Shown piece by piece: positions 18,556 to 44,125 of a DNA stretch of 64,000 nt. Where the stretch lies: positions 1 to 64,000 of the forward strand of contig JAOABX010000003.1 of the NCBI GenBank assembly GCA_026418175.1, given 5' to 3'. Made by a program: the position numbers and the translations under genes. Numbering within the stretch: position 1 is the first letter of the stretch; each line of letters starts with the position of its first letter. This stretch comes from Flavobacteriales bacterium. Lineage in GTDB: Bacteria; Bacteroidota; Bacteroidia; CAIKAF01. The notes beneath the pieces are model-generated. The model was not told the DNA's origin. It worked only from the letters and a program-made list of their open reading frames with translations, and made no database searches.

Positions 18556-18786
18556 CTAAGGGGTGGGGTTTTGTTTTTTCTTTTGTAAATAATCAATGAA
18601 ATCATATAGTGCGCCGCCGCCTAAGGCTCCTAATACCAGCCCTGCCAATGTACTTTTCCATGGACTTGACCAGATAGGGCAGCTTCCTCCTTTACAACCG
18701 ACTATTTTCCAATACAACAACCCTCCTAATGCGCCCGCTATTCCCCCTAAAATATAAAATATCAGTTGTTTCGTAGTTGCTTTCAT
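18556..18786 (-). CDS. Small DUF6132-like two-helix membrane protein
   Basis: 76 residues with two hydrophobic helices rich in glycine (FYILGGIAGALGGLLYW, about 10-26, and STLAGLVLGALGGGALYDF, about 45-63). A loop between them carries CKGGSCPIWSSPW, with two Cys that could bind sulfur or metal. The length and motif match the DUF6132 family as I remember it. Its ATG overlaps the stop of the MBL-rhodanese gene by four bases. That coupling and the Cys loop suggest a role in the same persulfide or sulfur pathway; this is inference. Confidence 0.72.
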   Translation of the reverse strand: MKATTKQLIFYILGGIAGALGGLLYWKIVGCKGGSCPIWSSPWKSTLAGLVLGALGGGALYDFIDYLQKKKQNPTP

Positions 18787-20201
18787 GCTTGTAATTTTTG
18801 GATTAGTCTTGAAGTTTCACAAGTCCCTGTTTCCAATTCTACATCTGCAGCTTCTTGAATTCCGTTGAAGCCACGGTAGATGTTAATAATATTTCTAAAT
18901 CCATGCTTTTTCATGATAGAACAAGCAATCATTGATCGATATCCACCAGCACAATGTATCAGGTAGTTTTTGTTTTTATCTAAGCGGGATAATTCTTTTT
19001 CAAGTATTTGCAAGTGAATGTTGATAGCCCCTTTAACGTGCCCAGCCTCAAACTCACCCGGTTTGCGCACATCTAAAATTTCATATCCTTGGTTTAAATA
19101 TCCCTTCATGTCAGATGGATCAGCGGAAGCAATGCTTTGAATGCGACCACCAGCATTTTTCCAGGCATCAATACCACCTTCCAGGTATCCAACTACATTT
19201 TCAAACCCAACCCGAGCCAGCCGAATCATCGCTTCGCGTTCCTTTCCAGGCTCACATACCAACACTGTGGGGGTAAAATAGTCAAGCAATGTTCCGGCCC
19301 AAATGGCAAATTGCCCGTTTAAGCCAATGTTTACTGACCCACTAATAAATCCGCGTTCAAAGTCATTAGGTTCTCTTGTGTCTAAGATTTGACAGCTGGA
19401 ATCAATTAAAAATTTAAGCTCGTCAAAATTTAAAGGTTTAAGTGCCCTATTTATAATGTTTTCTAAAGACAAGTAACCGCTTTTATTAATATTTGCTGCA
19501 ATGCTAAAATATTCTGGTGCCGGAATAATTCCTTCAGTTAATATTTCAATGAATTTATCTTTGGAAATGGGTTGTAATGCATAATTAGTTTTGCGTTGCT
19601 GGCCAAGTGTGCTCCAGGTTTCTTTGCCGATATTTTTGCCACAAGCCGAGCCGGGGCCATGTCCTGGATACACCAACAGATCGTCTTCTAATGGCATGAT
19701 TTTTTCATGAATAGAATCGTATAACATGCCTGCAAGATCTCTTTGGGTGAGATTACTTTTAACAGCCAAATCAGGCCGGCCAACATCACCAACAAACAAG
19801 GTGTCGCCGGTGAATATGGCATAGTTTTTGCTATTTTCATCCTTCAACAAAAAAGAAGTGGATTCTGGGGTGTGTCCTGGAGTGTGTAAAGCTACCAAGG
19901 TTATTTTTCCCAATGTAAACACTTCCTGGTCTTTGGCAATGTATGATCGGTATCCGGTTTGTGCTCCCGGGCCAAAAACTATGGTAGCTCCGGTGCGTTC
20001 TGCCAGTTCCAAGTGGCCGGAGATAAAATCGGCATGAAAATGAGTTTCAAAAATATACCGAATCGTTGCACCTCGTTCTTTGGCAAGTTCAAGATAAACA
20101 TCACTTTCCCGAATGGGGTCAATTACAGCTGCCTCTCCTTCTGATTCAATAAAATAAGAGGCTTCAGAAAGACAGCTAGTATATATTTGCTTTACAAACA
20201 T
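18783..20201 (-). CDS. MBL-fold hydrolase fused to two rhodanese domains (persulfide dioxygenase-like)
   Basis: 472 residues. The N-terminal metallo-beta-lactamase domain (about 1-245) has the metal motif ETHFHADFISGH (His54, His56, Asp58), HTPGHTPES, FTGDTLFVGDVGRPDL and VYPGHGPGSACG, as in ETHE1/BLH persulfide dioxygenases. Rhodanese domain 1 (about 262-365) has the loop VCEPGKERE, an active-site Cys but not the usual Arg. Rhodanese domain 2 (about 375-460) has the classic IHCAGGYRS loop. Expected role: oxidation of glutathione or low-molecular-weight persulfide and sulfane sulfur transfer in the cytoplasm. It heads the operon with the DUF6132-like, YyaL-like, methyltransferase and ZIP genes. 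Confidence 0.9.
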   Translation of the reverse strand: MFVKQIYTSCLSEASYFIESEGEAAVIDPIRESDVYLELAKERGATIRYIFETHFHADFISGHLELAERTGATIVFGPGAQTGYRSYIAKDQEVFTLGKITLVALHTPGHTPESTSFLLKDENSKNYAIFTGDTLFVGDVGRPDLAVKSNLTQRDLAGMLYDSIHEKIMPLEDDLLVYPGHGPGSACGKNIGKETWSTLGQQRKTNYALQPISKDKFIEILTEGIIPAPEYFSIAANINKSGYLSLENIINRALKPLNFDELKFLIDSSCQILDTREPNDFERGFISGSVNIGLNGQFAIWAGTLLDYFTPTVLVCEPGKEREAMIRLARVGFENVVGYLEGGIDAWKNAGGRIQSIASADPSDMKGYLNQGYEILDVRKPGEFEAGHVKGAINIHLQILEKELSRLDKNKNYLIHCAGGYRSMIACSIMKKHGFRNIINIYRGFNGIQEAADVELETGTCETSRLIQKLQA

Positions 20202-20430: not shown

Positions 20431-23400
20431 ATGAATAAATCGTCAAGCTTAACCTATGAACCCATAGCCATTGTAGGTATGGGACTTCGTTTTCCCGGTG
20501 GTGCCGCAGATCCGGAACACTTTTGGAAACTTTTAGCCGAAGGAACAGATTGTATAATTGATGTGCCCGAAGACCGTTGGGATATGCGCCGGTTTTACGA
20601 TCCGGACACTGATCGCCCAGGCAAAACGCATCAGCCTCAAATGGGATTTTTGAAGGTTAAATTGGATGAGTTTGATCCATTGTTTTTCGGAATGTCGCCT
20701 CGGGAGGCTGCTATTTTGGATCCGCAACAGCGGTTACTTTTGGAATCTACCTGGGAAGCATTTGAAGATGCCGGTTTAACCGAAGAGAAGCTTCGCGGAT
20801 CTGCAACCTCTGTATTTATTGGCGGATTCTGTTTAGACAACAAAATGCAGCAACTGGGGGTGCTCAACCGTGATTTGATCGGTCAACATACAGCAACCTC
20901 ATCTACAATGGTAATGTTGTCCAATCGTATTTCGTATTCATTTGACCTGAGAGGCCCCTCTTTAACCATTGATACGGCCTGTTCTTCTGCATTGGTCGCG
21001 GCGCACTATGCCTGTATGAGTATATGGTCGGGTGAAAGCGAAATGGCTGTGGCTGGTGGTGTTAATGTGATGTTGCGCCCGGAATATCCCATTGCTATGA
21101 GTAAAGGCCAATTCTTATCTAAGCACGCCCGCTGTAAAGCATTTGATGAAGATGCCGGAGGGTATGTGCGTGGAGAAGGAGCCGGAGTAGTTATTTTTAA
21201 GCCTTTAAAGAAAGCCATTGAAGATGGCGATTATATATATGCCTGTGTACGCGCTACCGGCTCTAATCAGGATGGAGCAACCAATGGTATTACTGTACCC
21301 AATCCGGAAGCACAGGAGGCACTAATTCGTGAAGTATATGCTAAAGCCGGAATTAATCCCAAACAGATTCGGTTTGTAGAAGCTCACGGAACAGGAACAA
21401 AAGCTGGAGACCCGGTAGAGATTACAGCATTGAATAATGTATTAAAAGAAGGCAGAAGTAAAGACGAAAAGGTTTTTGTGGGGTCTGTAAAAACAAATAT
21501 CGGCCACCTGGAAGCTGCTGCCGGTATTGCAGGTATCATAAAGTCGGCATTGGTTTTAAATAAGCGCCAGGTTCCACCTCATTTGCACTTTAAAAAGGCA
21601 AATCCAAAAATTAATTTTGACGAATTAGCTTTAAAGGTTCCTTTAAAGCTTGAAAGATTTGATGATAACGAAACACTTTTGGCTTCTATTAATTCTTTTG
21701 GATATGGAGGCACCAATGGGCACATGGTGTTAGAAGAGCCGCCCCGGGATTATTTAAAAGCGTTGGAAAACAAAAAAGCAGAAGACAACAAGGAATTATA
21801 TTTGTTTCCGGTGTCTGCAAAAAGTGATAATGCGCTCAAGGGAATATGTAAAAAGTATGCTGAATATTTAAAAAACAATCCTGTTTCACTCACCGATTTT
21901 GCTTACACCTTGGCTCATCGCCGTACGCATCATCTCAATCGAATTACAATAGTAGCAGGTAATCGTGAAGAGTTGATTGAAAAACTGGAGGCATATGCCA
22001 ATGGAGAAGCATTGGCAGGCGTAACTTATAATCAGGCTCAGGAAAATAAGAAGCTGGTGTATGTGTTTACCGGAATGGGGCCACAATGGTGGGCGATGGG
22101 TCGTGAGTTATACAGCAAAGAGCCAGTATTTAAAAATACGATAGATCGCTGTGACGAGATTTTCAAAAAAATTGCTGGATGGTCTCTGCTTGACGAAATG
22201 ATGAAGCCGGAGGCAGAATCTCGGATGAATGAAACGGCCATTGCTCAACCTGGAAACTTCTTTATTCAAGCGGCATTAACTGATTTATGGGCAAGTTGGG
22301 GTGTTAAGCCTGATGCGGTGGTGGGGCACTCGGTAGGTGAAGTGCCTGCAGCCTATGTTTCGGGGGCTCTGACACTGGAAGAGGGGGTGCTGGTAAGTTA
22401 TCACCGCAGTCGCTGTCAGCAAATGACTGCAGGGCAAGGAACTATGTTGGCCATAGGACTGGGAGAAGAAGCGGCTGATAAACTTATTCGTGAGCAGGGC
22501 TTACAAAATGAAATTTCAATTGCAGCTATCAATTCCTTTAATGGGGTAACTATTGCCGGAACTCGTGCTGCCTTAGAAAAAATCAGTGAAGTATTAACGC
22601 CTCAGAACATCTTTAATAAAATGCTCACGGTGGAGGTGGCATATCATAGCTACCAAATGGATCCACTGGAAAATGAGTTGCTTGAATCGTTGAAATCTGT
22701 AAATCCGCAAAAAGCAAAAATTCCTTTGTATTCAACCGTTACCGGAACCATTATGAATGGTACCGAGTTTAACAATGAATATTGGTGGCAAAATGTGCGT
22801 CAGCCTGTCCGTTTCGCTAAAGCAGCACAAACGATAGTGAATGATGGATATGCAATATTCCTCGAAGTAGGCCCACATCCGGTGCTTCGTACCAACATTA
22901 ATGAGTGTTTGTCATCAGCCGAACGAAAAGGCTACACCGTTCCTTCGTTGCGTCGGGGTGATCCGGAATTGTTTACCATGATTAATTCGTTGGGCACTTT
23001 ACATACTTTAGGAATTTCTATTAATTGGAATATATTCACTGAGGGAGGAAAATTCATTAAAATTCCAACATATGCATGGGATAAGGATGTTTACTGGCAA
23101 GAGTCGTTGGCTTCCATTGAAGACAAGCATGGCGTTCCAGGCCATGTATTCATGAATAACAACATGAGGATGCCTTATCCGGCTTGGGAAGTTGAAATTA
23201 ACCGGTACTTCATGCCTTGGATGGACGATCACAAGATTGAGAGCATGACGGTAATTCCTGGAGCCGCCTATGTGGAAGCGGGGCTTGCTTTGCATGAAAA
23301 AGAATTTGGTACAGCAGCTTGTACACTTCAAGATTTGGAATTTAATCAGGTGTTGGTAGTGGATGAAAAACGCATCCAGATGTTCCACACCACATATAAC

Positions 23401-26400
23401 CCTCAAACCAAACGATACAGTGTATACAGTCGCTTCCGCGAAGATAATTCACCGTGGACGCTACATGCCAGCGGACGAATGCTTAAGGATACAATTTCAA
23501 GAGCAGTTCCAAAGGTACCATTCGCAGAGATTCGTAAACGTTGTTCTGTTAGTGCAGATGCAGCAGAATTTTATACCAAGCTTTCAGGCAGGGGATTAAA
23601 TTATGGCCCATGGTTCCAAGGGGTAAAAGAAATTCATAAAGGACAAAACGAAGTACTGGTTAAAATCGAAGGAGATGCATCGCTCATAAGAAATAAAGAC
23701 GGATATCTGCTTCATCCAACCATTTTAGATTCTGGTTTCCAGTCAATGGTTGCTATTGTAGGCGATACCAGCAACAATCCCAATCCATTTGTTCCTGTTT
23801 CTATTGATGAGGTAATTTTCTACACCAGCCCACTAAATGAATGTTGGAGTTGGTGTAAAATTACGGAAGTAACAAACAACACCATTACAGGAGATCTTAT
23901 CTTGTTTGATGATAATGGCGATGTAATGGTTTCATTAGAAGGTATTACTTGTCAAGCCATAAACAGCAGCAAAGGAGAAGAAACCAATACAATGAACAAT
24001 TGGTTCTATGAATATGCATGGAAAGAACTGGAAGCTCTTGCTGCGAATGATAATACCAATGCATCTGGCAAATACCTGGTATTTGGAGATTATGACAACA
24101 TAGAATTGTTACAGGCATTGAATGAAAAAGGGATTGATTTTACCATAGTAACCAAAGGCGACAGTTACGTTAATGATGAAGGCCTGTTGTCAATCAATCC
24201 TGCCAACGAAGAGGATTATCATAAGTTATTTGCATCAGATGCTTATAGCCATGTGTTATACACATGGAGTTTGGAGGCCAGTGGGAAAGGGGCTGATATT
24301 TCTTACGAACAGGCGGTTGATCAAACCATGCCGGTAGTTTACATTGCTAAGGCAATTGCCAAGAATCGTCCGGCCGATAAGGTACGATTAGTGATTGTGA
24401 CCCGTGGAGTGCAGGTAGTAACAGAAGGAGATAAAGGATTGTCTTTGGAAACATCTGCTTTTTGGGGATTAAATCATTTAATTGGTAATGAAAATCCGAA
24501 TGTAACACCCAAAACAATTGACCTGAATCAAACACCAACGGATGGTGAATTTGAATTACTGGCAAAAGAGATTGTTTCTGGTAATAAAGAAGAAGATGTT
24601 GCTATTCGAGGCAATCATCGTTTCAGTCGTGTATTACAAACAGCATCGCTGGGCAAAAACAGTGGAGAAAAGAAAAAGGTTACTACAGATACTCCGGTGT
24701 CGCTTGAAGTTGGTCAGATTGGCCGTTTGGATAGCTTGTATTATGATGAGTTTGAAAGAAAGCCAGAGTTAGCACCGGATGAAATTGAAATCCGCAACTA
24801 CGCTGCATGTTTGAATCTGAAAGATGGATTGAAAGTGATTGGCCAACTTTCAGAAAAAGCTACCAAAGGGTCTTATTACGAACGGAATATAGGCCACGAA
24901 GCAGCTGGTGTAATTACCCGTGTAGGGTCTAATGTTAAAGACTTTAAGGTGGGCGAAGAAATCATTTTGGCGGCTCCAGAAGGTTGTTTGCGTTCGTATG
25001 TAGTTTCTGTTCCTACCTACTATCTGCGTAAACCCAAACATATAAAGTTTGAAGATGCATTGATGGTTGTGCCTTACATGACTGTTTTATATAGCTTGAG
25101 AAACCGGGCACAATTACAAAAAGGCGAAAAAATCCTGATTCATAACGGTACTGGTGGGGTTGGATTGGCGGCCATTCAATATGCACAATATGTGGGCGCA
25201 GAAATTTATACCACAGCTGGTAGCGAAGAGAAGCGTGAATACTTGCGTAATTTGGGAATAAAACATATTTACGATTCCCGCTCACTTGATTATGTAAAGC
25301 AAATCAAAGCAGATACCAACGGTTATGGAGTGGATGTTGTGTTGAATGCAATTGCCGGTGAATCTTTATACCAGTCGTTTGAATTGCTGGCACCGTATGG
25401 TAGATTTGTAGAAATCGGTAAGCGTGATATTACCGAAAACAACGGATTGCCTATGCAGCAGTTCAACAACAACATTACCTTCCACGGTATTGACGTTGAC
25501 CGATTGATGATGGAGCGTCCGCAAGTGGTTCAACAAATACATCGTGATATAGAAAAATTCTATGAAGAAGGGGTTTTCAAAGCAGTAAATACACACTTGT
25601 TTGATGCAAAAGATGCGGTAGAAGCATTTAATTTTATGCTTCAATCCAAGCATATAGGTAAGGTGGTTATCAACTTCCGTGATCAGGAGGTGGAAGTACC
25701 GGTAAAAGCACCAAAGAAACAAATTGATACCAATGCTACATACCTAATTACCGGAGGTACTGGAGGTTTTGGGCTTCAAATTGCACAATGGTTATCATCT
25801 AAAGGTGTAAAGCAGTTGGTGCTTGCCAGCCGAAGTGGCGCTAAGAGCAATGAGGCTAAAGAAGCTATTCGAAAAATGGAGGCACTGGGAACCAAGGTAT
25901 ATGCCGAACCGATAGATATTACCAACGAAGAGGTAGTAGCAAACGTGGTTCAAAAAATTAAATCTGAAATGCCACCGCTAAAAGGAATTATTCACGGTGC
26001 GGTAGTGCTTGATGACGGATTTATTGTAGACATGAATCGGGATCGCTTTATCACTTCATATCAAGCCAAAGTGGGTGGGGTATTGAATGTGCATAAATAC
26101 ACGAAGGATATTCCGCTTGACTTCTTTGTTTCATTCTCTTCTATTTCTGCATTGATTGGAAATAGTGGTCAGGCCAACTATGTATCATCAAATACATTTT
26201 TGGATCAGTTTGCACATTTCCGTAGGGCTAATGGTATGCAGGCAACAACCATCAACTTAGGAGTACTCGGTGAAGTTGGAGTGGCCGCCCGTGATGCCAA
26301 TGTAACTGCTATACTTGAAAGTGGAGGAATTTACGGATTTACGACGCAGGAAGCATTGGATGGTTTGGCAGTAGTGATTGAAAATACACCTGTGCAAGTG

Positions 26401-26877
26401 GGTATGTTTGATGTGGATTGGGCTCGTTGGAGCAGCATCAATCAAAAGAGTGCACAATCTTCCCGCTTTAAGCAATTGGCAGAAAGCAAAGGATCAGCTG
26501 CTGGCGGAGCAAGTAAAGTACATGAATTTGCCGCTGAATTATCGGTAATTGCCGAAAATGAGCGCACAGCGTACTTAGAAAATGCAGTGGCAGAAGAGTT
26601 GGCTCGTGTGTTGAAACTTTCTGTTGAGAAAATTGACAAATCACGAGGAATTAACTTCTTAGGGGTAGATTCGCTGATTGCCGTAGAATTAGGTCGCGCC
26701 ATTTCAGCCCGATTTGGTGTGGATGTTAGTACGATGGAATTGTTAAGTGGTCCCAATGTAACCCAGTTAGCATCCATAGTGATGGATAAAGTAGTTGCCA
26801 GTGGGGCAATGATTGGTGATCTTGACAACCTAAGCGAAGAAGAGCTGGATGCTTTGCTAGCTGAAGTGAAAGAATAA
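20431..26877 (+). CDS. Single-module fully reducing type I polyketide synthase (KS-AT-DH-psiKR-ER-KR-ACP)
   Basis: 2148 residues with every domain of a fatty-acid-synthase-like reducing module. KS (about 9-430): Cys184 in DTACSSA, His319 in EAHGTGT, His359 in NIGHLEA. AT (about 540-850): Ser634 in GHSVGE; the selectivity motif reads VAYH739S, nearest to the malonyl-type HAFH. DH (about 900-1185): His934, with Ser where HxxxGxxxxP normally has Gly, and Asp1100 in DSGFQ. A structural pseudo-KR follows (about 1195-1420), then ER (about 1430-1760, HNGTGGVGLAAIQYA), KR (about 1770-2000, TGGTGGFG, Ser in SFSSIS, Tyr in QANYVSSN) and ACP (Ser2081 in GVDSLIA). No methyltransferase, thioesterase or reductase domain and no neighbouring PPTase or acyl-AMP ligase are seen. 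Probably an iterative synthase of a long saturated acyl chain; the product and release route are unknown. It has its own promoter and terminator. Confidence 0.95.
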   Translation: MNKSSSLTYEPIAIVGMGLRFPGGAADPEHFWKLLAEGTDCIIDVPEDRWDMRRFYDPDTDRPGKTHQPQMGFLKVKLDEFDPLFFGMSPREAAILDPQQRLLLESTWEAFEDAGLTEEKLRGSATSVFIGGFCLDNKMQQLGVLNRDLIGQHTATSSTMVMLSNRISYSFDLRGPSLTIDTACSSALVAAHYACMSIWSGESEMAVAGGVNVMLRPEYPIAMSKGQFLSKHARCKAFDEDAGGYVRGEGAGVVIFKPLKKAIEDGDYIYACVRATGSNQDGATNGITVPNPEAQEALIREVYAKAGINPKQIRFVEAHGTGTKAGDPVEITALNNVLKEGRSKDEKVFVGSVKTNIGHLEAAAGIAGIIKSALVLNKRQVPPHLHFKKANPKINFDELALKVPLKLERFDDNETLLASINSFGYGGTNGHMVLEEPPRDYLKALENKKAEDNKELYLFPVSAKSDNALKGICKKYAEYLKNNPVSLTDFAYTLAHRRTHHLNRITIVAGNREELIEKLEAYANGEALAGVTYNQAQENKKLVYVFTGMGPQWWAMGRELYSKEPVFKNTIDRCDEIFKKIAGWSLLDEMMKPEAESRMNETAIAQPGNFFIQAALTDLWASWGVKPDAVVGHSVGEVPAAYVSGALTLEEGVLVSYHRSRCQQMTAGQGTMLAIGLGEEAADKLIREQGLQNEISIAAINSFNGVTIAGTRAALEKISEVLTPQNIFNKMLTVEVAYHSYQMDPLENELLESLKSVNPQKAKIPLYSTVTGTIMNGTEFNNEYWWQNVRQPVRFAKAAQTIVNDGYAIFLEVGPHPVLRTNINECLSSAERKGYTVPSLRRGDPELFTMINSLGTLHTLGISINWNIFTEGGKFIKIPTYAWDKDVYWQESLASIEDKHGVPGHVFMNNNMRMPYPAWEVEINRYFMPWMDDHKIESMTVIPGAAYVEAGLALHEKEFGTAACTLQDLEFNQVLVVDEKRIQMFHTTYNPQTKRYSVYSRFREDNSPWTLHASGRMLKDTISRAVPKVPFAEIRKRCSVSADAAEFYTKLSGRGLNYGPWFQGVKEIHKGQNEVLVKIEGDASLIRNKDGYLLHPTILDSGFQSMVAIVGDTSNNPNPFVPVSIDEVIFYTSPLNECWSWCKITEVTNNTITGDLILFDDNGDVMVSLEGITCQAINSSKGEETNTMNNWFYEYAWKELEALAANDNTNASGKYLVFGDYDNIELLQALNEKGIDFTIVTKGDSYVNDEGLLSINPANEEDYHKLFASDAYSHVLYTWSLEASGKGADISYEQAVDQTMPVVYIAKAIAKNRPADKVRLVIVTRGVQVVTEGDKGLSLETSAFWGLNHLIGNENPNVTPKTIDLNQTPTDGEFELLAKEIVSGNKEEDVAIRGNHRFSRVLQTASLGKNSGEKKKVTTDTPVSLEVGQIGRLDSLYYDEFERKPELAPDEIEIRNYAACLNLKDGLKVIGQLSEKATKGSYYERNIGHEAAGVITRVGSNVKDFKVGEEIILAAPEGCLRSYVVSVPTYYLRKPKHIKFEDALMVVPYMTVLYSLRNRAQLQKGEKILIHNGTGGVGLAAIQYAQYVGAEIYTTAGSEEKREYLRNLGIKHIYDSRSLDYVKQIKADTNGYGVDVVLNAIAGESLYQSFELLAPYGRFVEIGKRDITENNGLPMQQFNNNITFHGIDVDRLMMERPQVVQQIHRDIEKFYEEGVFKAVNTHLFDAKDAVEAFNFMLQSKHIGKVVINFRDQEVEVPVKAPKKQIDTNATYLITGGTGGFGLQIAQWLSSKGVKQLVLASRSGAKSNEAKEAIRKMEALGTKVYAEPIDITNEEVVANVVQKIKSEMPPLKGIIHGAVVLDDGFIVDMNRDRFITSYQAKVGGVLNVHKYTKDIPLDFFVSFSSISALIGNSGQANYVSSNTFLDQFAHFRRANGMQATTINLGVLGEVGVAARDANVTAILESGGIYGFTTQEALDGLAVVIENTPVQVGMFDVDWARWSSINQKSAQSSRFKQLAESKGSAAGGASKVHEFAAELSVIAENERTAYLENAVAEELARVLKLSVEKIDKSRGINFLGVDSLIAVELGRAISARFGVDVSTMELLSGPNVTQLASIVMDKVVASGAMIGDLDNLSEEELDALLAEVKE

Positions 26878-26901
26878 TTTCACGAATTGTTTTAATATGA
26901 T

Positions 26902-26929
26902 AAAAAGCCCGGTTATTTCCGGGCTTTTT
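26902..26929 (+). terminator. Rho-independent terminator of the polyketide synthase gene
   Basis: AAAAAGCCCGG and CCGGGCTTTTT form an 11-bp stem with a 6-base loop and a T-run. It begins 25 bases after the synthase stop and ends only 6 bases before the best start codon of the Kunitz-like gene. Confidence 0.93.
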
Positions 26930-26935
26930 AAATTT

Positions 26936-27196
26936 ATGTTTCAATTATTTATTATGCAGGTAATAAATTGGGGTTTTCTTCTTATCATTTGCTTACTATT
27001 AAGCTCTTGTAGTTATTGCCCATCGTCACGAGGAGCTTGTGCTGAACAAGTGCCACAAGGCGAAACCTGTATGGCGTACTTTGAACGATGGTTTTTTGAT
27101 GAAGAAACCAATACCTGTATTAAAATCAGTTATTCCGGGTGCAGTTCAAAAGGATTTGAAACTCAGCAAGCGTGTAATGCTTGCAAGTGTAAATGA
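26936..27196 (+). CDS. Kunitz/BPTI-like small lipoprotein
   Basis: 86 residues if started at 26936 (80 from 26954). An earlier in-frame ATG at 26897 would put the terminator hairpin inside the gene, so I reject it. A hydrophobic signal ends in the lipobox LLLSSC. The mature part reads like a Kunitz domain: CAEQVPQGETC, M as the P1-like residue, AYFERWFFDEETNTC, IKISYSGC, then FETQQAC and NAC. Spacing between Cys is 9-15-7-10-2 against 8-15-7-12-3 in aprotinin, and the ERWFF and YSGC cores match. Two extra Cys could make a fourth disulfide. If real, it would be a lipid-anchored serine-protease inhibitor with Met at P1. There is no space for an own promoter after the terminator, so expression may come from synthase read-through or from a promoter inside the synthase end. 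Confidence 0.72.
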   Translation: MFQLFIMQVINWGFLLIICLLLSSCSYCPSSRGACAEQVPQGETCMAYFERWFFDEETNTCIKISYSGCSSKGFETQQACNACKCK

Positions 27197-42964: not shown

Positions 42965-44125
42965 ATGGTTATGTTGTTTAATGGAAATATTGAATCAAAG
43001 CTTCCCCGTGTAAAAACTACCATATTTACCATTATGAGTGCGTTGGCCAAAGAGCACAACGCCATCAACCTTGCTCAGGGATTTCCGGATTTTAATGTAA
43101 ATCCCAAACTAGTTGAACTGGTTACAAAAGCCATGAATAACGGCTACAATCAATATGCGCCCATGCAAGGATTGATGAACCTAAGGGAAGCCATTGCCGA
43201 AAAAACCGAAACGCTATACAGCGCTCAATATCATCCGGAAAAAGAAATAACCATTACTGCCGGTGCTACACAAGCCTTGTTTACAGCCATAGCCGCATTT
43301 GTAAAAGAAGGCGATGAAGTGATTGTGATTGAACCAGCATACGATAGTTATGTGCCTGCCATTGAACTTAATGGCGGTATTCCGAAGTTTGTTCAATTAG
43401 ACGACACTACCTTTCAAGTGAAATGGGAGCATGTAAAAAAACTGATTAATCAAAAAACCCGGGCTATAATCATTAACACCCCCCACAATCCCACAGGCTC
43501 TATTCTTTCAGCTGCCGATATGCAGAAACTGGAAAAAATATTAAAAGGGAAAGACATTCTTGTTATAAGCGACGAAGTTTACGAGCATATTGTTTTCGAC
43601 AATGTTGAACATCAAAGTGTAGCACGTTTTCCGGAGTTGGCCAAACGTAGCATTATTGTTTCTTCATTTGGAAAGACCTATCATACCACCGGATGGAAAA
43701 TAGGCTATGTTTTGGCTCCCGAAAATTTGATGACGGAGTTTAGAAAAGTGCATCAGTACAATGTGTTTTCTGTAAATACACCCATTCAACAAGCGTATGC
43801 AGAAATTTTAAAGGATAAACAACTGTATGTGGAATTAGGGCAGTTTTATCAGCAAAAACGTGATTACTTCCGCCAATTAATTAAAGGCTCACGGTTTGAT
43901 ATTAAACCAGTGCATGGCAGTTATTTTCAGGTGCTGGGGTACACTAAAATAAGCGATGAAAAAGATGTGGATTTTGCACGTCGTATGACGGTTGAAATAG
44001 GTGTTGCTCCCATTCCACTTTCTGTATTTTTTAATAATCATCATGATACAAAATGTTTGCGTTTTTGTTTTGCAAAACAAGATGAAACGTTAGAGAAAGC
44101 AGCCGAAAAATTGATGAAAATTTAA
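42965..44125 (+). CDS. Class I/II aminotransferase, methionine/glutamine transaminase (YbdL-like)
   Basis: 386 residues, PLP fold-type I. It has INLAQGFPDFNV (about 35-46), YAPMQGLMNLREAIAEK (about 62-78), NTPHNPTGS (about 172), SDEVYEHIVFD (about 205) and the Schiff-base Lys in SSFGKTYHTTGWKIGY (about 240). The match is to YbdL / kynurenine aminotransferase-type enzymes that use methionine or glutamine as amino donor. The next gene, four bases on, encodes an omega-amidase-type nitrilase. That pairing is the usual one for transaminating glutamine and then hydrolysing the ketoglutaramate, as in methionine salvage. Confidence 0.92.
   Translation: MVMLFNGNIESKLPRVKTTIFTIMSALAKEHNAINLAQGFPDFNVNPKLVELVTKAMNNGYNQYAPMQGLMNLREAIAEKTETLYSAQYHPEKEITITAGATQALFTAIAAFVKEGDEVIVIEPAYDSYVPAIELNGGIPKFVQLDDTTFQVKWEHVKKLINQKTRAIIINTPHNPTGSILSAADMQKLEKILKGKDILVISDEVYEHIVFDNVEHQSVARFPELAKRSIIVSSFGKTYHTTGWKIGYVLAPENLMTEFRKVHQYNVFSVNTPIQQAYAEILKDKQLYVELGQFYQQKRDYFRQLIKGSRFDIKPVHGSYFQVLGYTKISDEKDVDFARRMTVEIGVAPIPLSVFFNNHHDTKCLRFCFAKQDETLEKAAEKLMKI

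Follow-up and report, generated by a model that had tools for sequence, protein, structure and literature searches.

A single-module reducing synthase among unrelated genes

The window analysed here is a 64,000-nucleotide stretch of contig JAOABX010000003.1 from a Flavobacteriales bacterium (GenBank assembly GCA_026418175.1; contig C33 of the genome labelled G000, which is 2.68 Mb in size and 99.72% complete). At 20431-26877 on the + strand it carries a single uninterrupted open reading frame (ORF) of 2148 amino acids, P0001, which the ORF, Pfam matches and orthologues identify as an iterative fully reducing type I polyketide/fatty-acid synthase. From Pfam and motif alignment, the chain begins with a ketosynthase (KS; aa 10-387, 20458-21591; PF00109/PF02801) that has Cys184, His319 and His359 and the motifs DTACSS, HGTGT and NxGHLE, with DPQQR intact, followed by an acyltransferase (AT; aa 543-862, 22057-23016; PF00698) with GHSVGE (Ser634) and VAYHS, and a dehydratase (DH; aa 917-1180, 23179-23970; PF21089/PF14765) with His934 and Asp1100. 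A structural ketoreductase region (psi-KR, Beta-ketacyl_N; aa 1215-1369, 24073-24537) is recognised by PF21394 at 27.1 bits, against a cut-off of 26.9. The enoylreductase (ER; aa 1449-1747, 24775-25671; PF08240/PF00107) contains NGTGGVG, and the catalytic ketoreductase (KR; aa 1769-1946, 25735-26268; PF08659) contains GGTGGFG, LDD and the S/Y motif with Tyr1917. The acyl carrier protein (ACP; aa 2052-2115, 26584-26775; PF00550) has GVDS with Ser2081, and the chain ends in an acidic tail, LSEEELDALLAEVKE (26824-26874), a possible docking peptide judging by its conservation among orthologues. All these features lie on the + strand. The Pfam scan revealed no thioesterase, reductase, condensation or AMP-ligase domain in P0001, and the catalytic motifs are kept wherever the corresponding stretch is present in an alignment of 15 rows. 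P0001 is a single-module fully reducing type I polyketide synthase (PKS), with KS-AT-DH-ER-KR-ACP and their catalytic residues in one chain, and is the only large KS protein of its genome, the remaining PF00109 matches sitting in frames of 397-425 aa.

Two motifs deserve comment. The DH motif, HKIESMTVIP, deviates from HxxxGxxxxP, and the Gly is also missing in mycocerosic acid synthase (HQVHNVAALP). At the AT position of VAYHS, the alignment places VASH in mycocerosic acid synthase, which is a methylmalonyl user. In the swf paper, the AT motif IAFH is read as malonyl type (PMC3908369). From these two comparisons, the AT of P0001 is predicted to use malonyl-CoA.

Orthologues of P0001 with 65-96% identity occur in 11 other genomes, which rules out a chance ORF and places the PKS in 12/16 genomes of the order (here equivalent to its family within the set of 16 genomes used). 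Every g1, g4 and g5 genome has it; no g2, g3 or g6 genome does. The closest relative among the species genomes scanned, an uncultured Flavobacteriales metagenome-assembled genome, is 96% identical over the synthase. The immediate neighbours are unrelated to the PKS: Pfam recognises an MBL-rhodanese protein, a PurQ-like GATase and DUF6427. Since the surroundings of the PKS gene vary from genus to genus within the order, it lies outside any local cluster and is a gene retained through several genera. Across the orthologous loci, no release gene was recognised beside it.

An earlier note on this DNA had described a stand-alone fully reducing module of the order KS-AT-DH-psiKR-ER-KR-ACP, with active-site residues visible and no release domain, and in all of this it was right; the neighbours, which it read as housekeeping genes, are unrelated. 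The order, which it called FAS-like, is what single-module reducing PKSs ordinarily have; P0001 can be aligned with mycocerosic acid synthase over residues 10-2121. The note would have given way to a KS grouping with a characterised synthase, and no such grouping appears in our KS trees.

An unlinked alpha-oxoamine synthase shares the distribution of the synthase

On a different contig, at G000:C26:17772-19151, the genome encodes P0003, a pyridoxal phosphate (PLP)-dependent alpha-oxoamine synthase (AOS) of 460 aa. Its nearest solved protein is the serine palmitoyltransferase of Sphingobacterium; the alignment spans 62-440, scores 246 bits and brings together the PLP-lysine regions as well as the His and Asp motifs of the two. 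An orthologue of P0003 is found in the same 12/16 order genomes as the PKS: 11 are full-length (71-100% identity) and the twelfth, in G006, is a 131-aa contig-edge fragment with 76% identity. Both genes are absent from G004, G005, G008 and G009. This profile is not general to AOSs, because paralogues of the glycine C-acetyltransferase and cysteate-acyltransferase types also occur in PKS-negative genomes. In 11 genomes the PKS and AOS genes are on separate contigs; G013 has both on one contig, separated by about 765 kb.

Beyond the order, we compared 395 genomes of the class. At E <= 1e-75 the AOS has matches in 24 of them, 12 of which match from residue 1, namely the 11 of the order and G136, a genome of another family whose AOS is 67% identical and which is the only carrier outside the order to match from residue 1. 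PKS matches at E <= 1e-200 are likewise found in 24 genomes, 13 at >=50% identity, comprising the 12 PKS-positive members of the order and G136 (51%), and the other 11, G061 among them, at 33-46%. In G136 the PKS and AOS also lie on different contigs. We considered a linkage hidden by a contig end and rejected it: the 317 bases that follow the AOS look by eye like the beginning of an unrelated oxidoreductase-like frame, and tblastn gave no convincing PKS match in them, although the PKS contig is cut at its 5′ end and the two genes may be linked at a greater distance.

The source genome holds four AOS-like matches. P0003 is of the PKS type, and the others are a glycine C-acetyltransferase, a BioF that by eye lies among biotin genes, and a cysteate-acyltransferase-like protein. 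No serine palmitoyltransferase above its cut-off is among them. One of the four, G000:C14, had been considered as a serine palmitoyltransferase and was rejected as a glycine C-acetyltransferase (702 bits, cut-off 493). An aminotransferase within the window, at 42965-44125, was likewise rejected as a partner of the PKS; by eye it resembles a plain aminotransferase, and it is absent among the AOS matches.

The AOS groups with enzymes encoded beside PKS genes

In AOS trees the unlinked enzymes form one group within the clade of PKS-adjacent AOSs, with SH-aLRT support of 98 (all columns) and 97 (core columns), both excluding locus L066. Glycine C-acetyltransferases, serine-palmitoyltransferase-like and cysteate-acyltransferase-like enzymes fall outside this clade, "serine-palmitoyltransferase-like" being our own label for the group L176-L183. 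The core-column tree omits the G006 fragment (L156), two ORFs of 795 and 799 aa, L152, L198 and L201, as well as L071 (230 aa) on account of its length.

The N terminus of P0003 carries a basic segment, LSVEEKRELLKKLMKEK. A hidden Markov model (HMM) of the AOS N-terminal segment matches all 12/12 full-length AOSs from genomes with the PKS (11 in the order plus G136) at 14.5-29.2 bits, and 0/41 other proteins of the AOS family (top score 3.1 bits), a set that includes the C-terminal fragment of G006. It was trained on 14 of 21 PKS-adjacent AOS rows; those omitted (both ORFs each of L039 and L042, and L056, L075 and L086) lack the segment or begin upstream, by eye. The HMM supersedes an earlier regular expression, which had found 8/12 and 12/21. 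When the AOS of L066 is used as query against the relatives, it also recovers an AOS matching from residue 4 in the PKS-positive genomes. At the other end of the proposed pair, the acidic tail LSEEELDALLAEVKE of the synthase is nearly invariant across 12/12 orthologous loci and similar in L032 and in the AOS-adjacent L066.

Some homologous synthases are adjacent or fused to an AOS

A scan of 84,980 species genomes, with the best 80 of 269 confirmed stretches kept, gave 78 loci homologous to the PKS, around which 1043 ORFs were clustered. The commonest neighbour is an ORF of the AOS family with the aminotransferase-I/II fold, present at 20/78 loci and located <=2 genes downstream of the PKS in 19 of those 20. 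A scan of two of these neighbour ORFs showed them to be AOS-like, with kinship to BioF, glycine C-acetyltransferase and serine palmitoyltransferase. AOS-adjacent loci include L066 (Chitinophagales, 48% PKS identity), the closest relative beyond the order whose PKS is complete, and L033 (Planctomycetota, 45%).

Furthermore, the Planktothrix plasmid protein WP_042158693.1 (L214:2590-10188) combines KS-AT-DH-ER-KR-ACP-AOS in one chain, its AOS part being 56% identical to P0003 and its PKS part 34% identical to P0001. The gene is annotated merely as "type I polyketide synthase". Among the plasmid matches of P0003, 7 of the 15 listed were inspected (H11, H12, H13, H16, H17, H18 and H23), and 7/7 are fused to or near a type I PKS: two fused, three adjacent and two with one intervening gene.

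Other arrangements recur around the homologues. In nine loci (L044, L051, L054, L063, L067, L068, L074, L080 and L084, from Nitrosomonas, Methylobacter, Nitrospira and an unplaced proteobacterium), genes for an MMPL transporter and a LolA-like protein lie after the PKS and AOS, together with a third family that Pfam does not recognise; this arrangement suggests lipid export towards the outer membrane. In six loci that are Verrucomicrobiota by record title (L038, L053, L058, L059, L087 and L098), the genes after the PKS encode a methyltransferase-like protein, a hybrid of histidine kinase and response regulator, and other related proteins. A thioester reductase gene lies next to the PKS at L031:16265-17533 and L040:16427-19727, followed in L040 by two sulfotransferase genes, an arrangement that resembles the swf clusters of sponge symbionts.

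At the window itself, the MBL-rhodanese gene (persulfide-dioxygenase-like; 18783-20201, − strand) lies divergently upstream of the PKS, as it does in 5/12 orthologous loci (the window, L022, L027, L029 and L036); in L025 a 93-aa ORF at this position may be a remnant (by eye). Downstream, 20 bases past the PKS stop codon, begins a gene (26897-27196, + strand) whose 99-aa product looks secreted or lipoprotein-like and contains a Kunitz/BPTI protease-inhibitor domain (PF00014, 31.3 bits, cut-off 21), a kind of domain unusual in bacteria. L022 has a copy with 69% identity in the same position, and none was found in the 12 other loci searched.

Probable accessory genes: an adjoining SDR and a thioesterase-PPTase pair

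Directly after the AOS, an extended short-chain dehydrogenase/reductase (SDR) of the Epimerase family, P0004, is encoded in all six g1/g4 genomes (G000, G001, G002, G003, G006 and G010). A P0004-type SDR lies 6.5 kb from the AOS in G013; for the remaining g5 genomes, the stretches read showed none. Among solved proteins P0004 is closest to a "putative oxidoreductase" (3wj7), and we predict that it is a 3-ketosphinganine reductase.

The source genome contains one PF01648 phosphopantetheinyl transferase (PPTase), P0006, which adjoins a type II thioesterase, P0005 (PF00975). The pair, at G000:C33:126883-128241, is on the contig of the window but outside it, about 100 kb downstream of the PKS. The thioesterase occurs in the same 12/16 order genomes as the PKS and is next to the PPTase in 12/12.

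These genes revise the earlier picture of a synthase lacking release and activation partners: an AOS with its adjoining SDR (G000:C26) and the thioesterase-PPTase pair are present elsewhere in the genome. That no thioesterase or PPTase lies in or near the gene holds within the window but fails on the same contig, and the proposed search for a distant PPTase has now yielded one. The AOS and the thioesterase-PPTase pair each have the 12/16 distribution of the PKS. The synthase is isolated as a gene; its pathway probably is not.

A proposed trans-acting pathway and its alternatives

We propose, with a probability of roughly 0.7, that the acyl-ACP of the synthase is offloaded in trans by the unlinked AOS with an amino acid, giving a sphingoid-like base. 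In this scheme PPTase P0006 would convert the ACP of the synthase to its holo form, and the synthase would extend iteratively with malonyl-CoA to build a saturated acyl chain on its own ACP. The missing release domain would be explained by release in trans. P0003 would dock to the synthase, possibly through contact of its basic segment LSVEEKRELLKKLMKEK with the acidic tail LSEEELDALLAEVKE, and offload the acyl thioester by PLP-dependent decarboxylative condensation, most likely with L-serine, to a 3-keto sphingoid-like base. The ketone of this base is probably reduced by the adjacent SDR P0004, and type II thioesterase P0005 may clear stalled or misprimed ACPs. We would expect the product to be a sphingoid-like lipid, either of the membrane or serving as an anchor, in keeping with the earlier best guess of a lipid. 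P0003 is well supported as the partner; the product is unproven.

Several observations weigh against this proposal. No AOS is present in the stretch fetched at 58/78 homologous loci, 11 of which are the orthologues from the order, and tails like LSEEELDALLAEVKE are also found on homologues with non-AOS neighbours. The co-distribution within the order may stem from one gain or loss in one clade, with G136 as the sole independent repeat, and G061 has two full-length PKSs of 33% identity and no AOS of this type. The AOS of L066 is on a long branch and its placement is unsure; when it is included, the support for the core-column branch is 72. The KS of P0001 falls outside the RkpA/WcbR/SgaA-like clade (five synthases, support 99). 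P0003 itself remains below every curated NCBIfam cut-off for serine palmitoyltransferase (324/282/229 bits on three models, cut-offs 640/500/670), BioF (355, cut-off 426) and glycine C-acetyltransferase, so that serine as its substrate is not assured. Finally, some related synthases keep other company: the Acidobacteriota homologues L031 and L040 (44-45% identity) adjoin a PF07993 thioester reductase, and the synthase of Aureibacter, a member of the Bacteroidota, has a fused PF00975 thioesterase, plus a PPTase.

One alternative is hydrolytic release, whereby P0005 or another hydrolase would free a fatty acid for a membrane or storage lipid and the AOS would be an unrelated sphingolipid enzyme using acyl-CoA. 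The Aureibacter fusion and the presence of the thioesterase in the same 12/16 genomes as the PKS, always paired with the PPTase, agree with such a role. However, P0005 is a free-standing type II thioesterase, a class known mainly for editing, and hydrolysis leaves unexplained the co-distribution of the AOS, its N-terminal segment and its kinship to AOSs adjacent or fused to PKSs; we consider this route unlikely. The two reductase-adjoining homologues, one with sulfotransferases following, together with mycocerosic acid synthase being the best full-length solved relative of P0001, would instead fit release by an unlinked PapA5-like acyltransferase or a thioester reductase, as in mycocerosate- or swf-like systems, to an ester, alcohol or aldehyde. 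Around the PKS of the orthologous loci we recognised neither family, a genome-wide search for them not having been made, and such release seems to us quite improbable.

A further destination for the chain would be the sulfonolipid pathway, through the cysteate fatty-acyltransferase-like AOS G000:C27 (L200:1290-2726). This protein scores 580 bits to cysteate-C-fatty acyltransferase 28eh and 228 to serine palmitoyltransferase, which suggests, on similarity, that the organism also makes sulfonolipids. Yet enzymes of the C27 type occur in PKS-negative genomes too, lack the N-terminal segment by HMM and form a distant clade in the AOS trees, and we regard it as very doubtful that the PKS feeds this pathway. 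A wider proposal, to which we give somewhat less than even odds, is that the whole uncultured Bacteroidota order and one relative in its class make sphingoid bases by a dispersed PKS-AOS route that replaces the canonical acyl-CoA-dependent serine palmitoyltransferase, with the pair held together in trans by the tail and the N-terminal segment, a separate cysteate acyltransferase leading to sulfonolipids, and the whole invisible to gene-cluster mining. The absence of a serine palmitoyltransferase over its cut-off among the four AOS-like matches favours this wider proposal.

Implications for surveys of PKS-derived sphingolipids

The program cblaster looks for co-located genes. PKS-derived sphingolipids from a bacterium were reported in 2025, and that report counts 6,101 homologous two-gene clusters with cblaster (PMC12134224). 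Our literature search of open-licence PMC papers found neither a scattered PKS-AOS pathway nor one in Bacteroidota. The present data suggest that the pathway also exists with its genes dispersed on the chromosome, and this in a phylum whose ordinary sphingolipids are well known. Because cblaster detects co-located genes, a scattered pathway would have gone uncounted in that survey. If our proposal is true, surveys of co-location undercount the PKS-AOS pathway, many of the single-module PKSs that look like "orphans" may be served by an AOS acting in trans, and the AOS N-terminal segment with the PKS C-terminal tail provides a testable signature for revealing such pairs.

Comparison with known systems

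Mycocerosic acid synthase and the Pks2-type enzymes share the domain order and length of P0001 and also lack a thioesterase (1008 bits over the alignment given above), and their product is released in trans by an acyltransferase. However, in a tree of 70 KS rows, from which loci without a complete in-frame KS (L026, L028 and L032/G136 among them) were left out, the mycobacterial and Nocardia KSs form a separate clade (support 100) from the window KS, and the AT of mycocerosic acid synthase has VASH where the window PKS has VAYH. A Pks2- or mycocerosic-type identity was rejected on this separation and on score (1277 bits, NCBIfam cut-off 2400), and that of a polyunsaturated fatty acid (PUFA) synthase PfaA on score (404 bits, cut-off 1010), so that in the comparison the earlier note had proposed the synthase belongs to neither type. 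The swf PKS/FAS of sponge symbionts is also a single-module KS-AT-DH-ER-KR-ACP enzyme of unknown product, but its partners are a thioester reductase and sulfotransferase and a radical SAM protein, and its KS has HATGT (PMC3908369). The window PKS has HGTGT and neither a reductase nor a sulfotransferase neighbour.

The closest functional likeness is to PKSs that work with an AOS. In Pseudomonas fluorescens MYb115, PfSgaA and PfSgaB make sphinganines: PfSgaA, PfSgaB and PfSgaC are a single-module iterative type I PKS, an AOS with serine palmitoyltransferase activity and a ketone-reducing SDR (PMC12134224). SgaA and SgaB form a two-gene cluster, whereas the PKS and AOS genes of the window organism are scattered, and SgaC is described there as KDSR-like, whereas P0004 is an extended SDR of the Epimerase family (PMC12134224). 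The PKSs compared from that context, L215, L217 and L218, have a longer DH-ER stretch and about 2500 aa in total. L218 we take from its context to be the rkp genes, its record being without gene names. In the RkpA/RkpG/RkpH system of Sinorhizobium meliloti and the WcbR-type systems, PKS, AOS and SDR lie side by side, beside capsule genes, and their product is assumed to be a lipid that serves capsule export. P0003 shares 46% identity with the AOS encoded on S. meliloti pSymB, and 0/5 stand-alone AOSs of the Rkp/WcbR type that were tested score on the N-terminal segment HMM. The Planktothrix protein unites the same two activities, fused into one chain instead of split. The window organism lacks the clustering of PKS with AOS seen in the SgaAB, RkpAG and WcbR systems and, like them, encodes an AOS of the PKS-partner type. 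The synthase would work like SgaAB and RkpA/RkpG but falls outside those families by its unclustered genes and the position of its KS.

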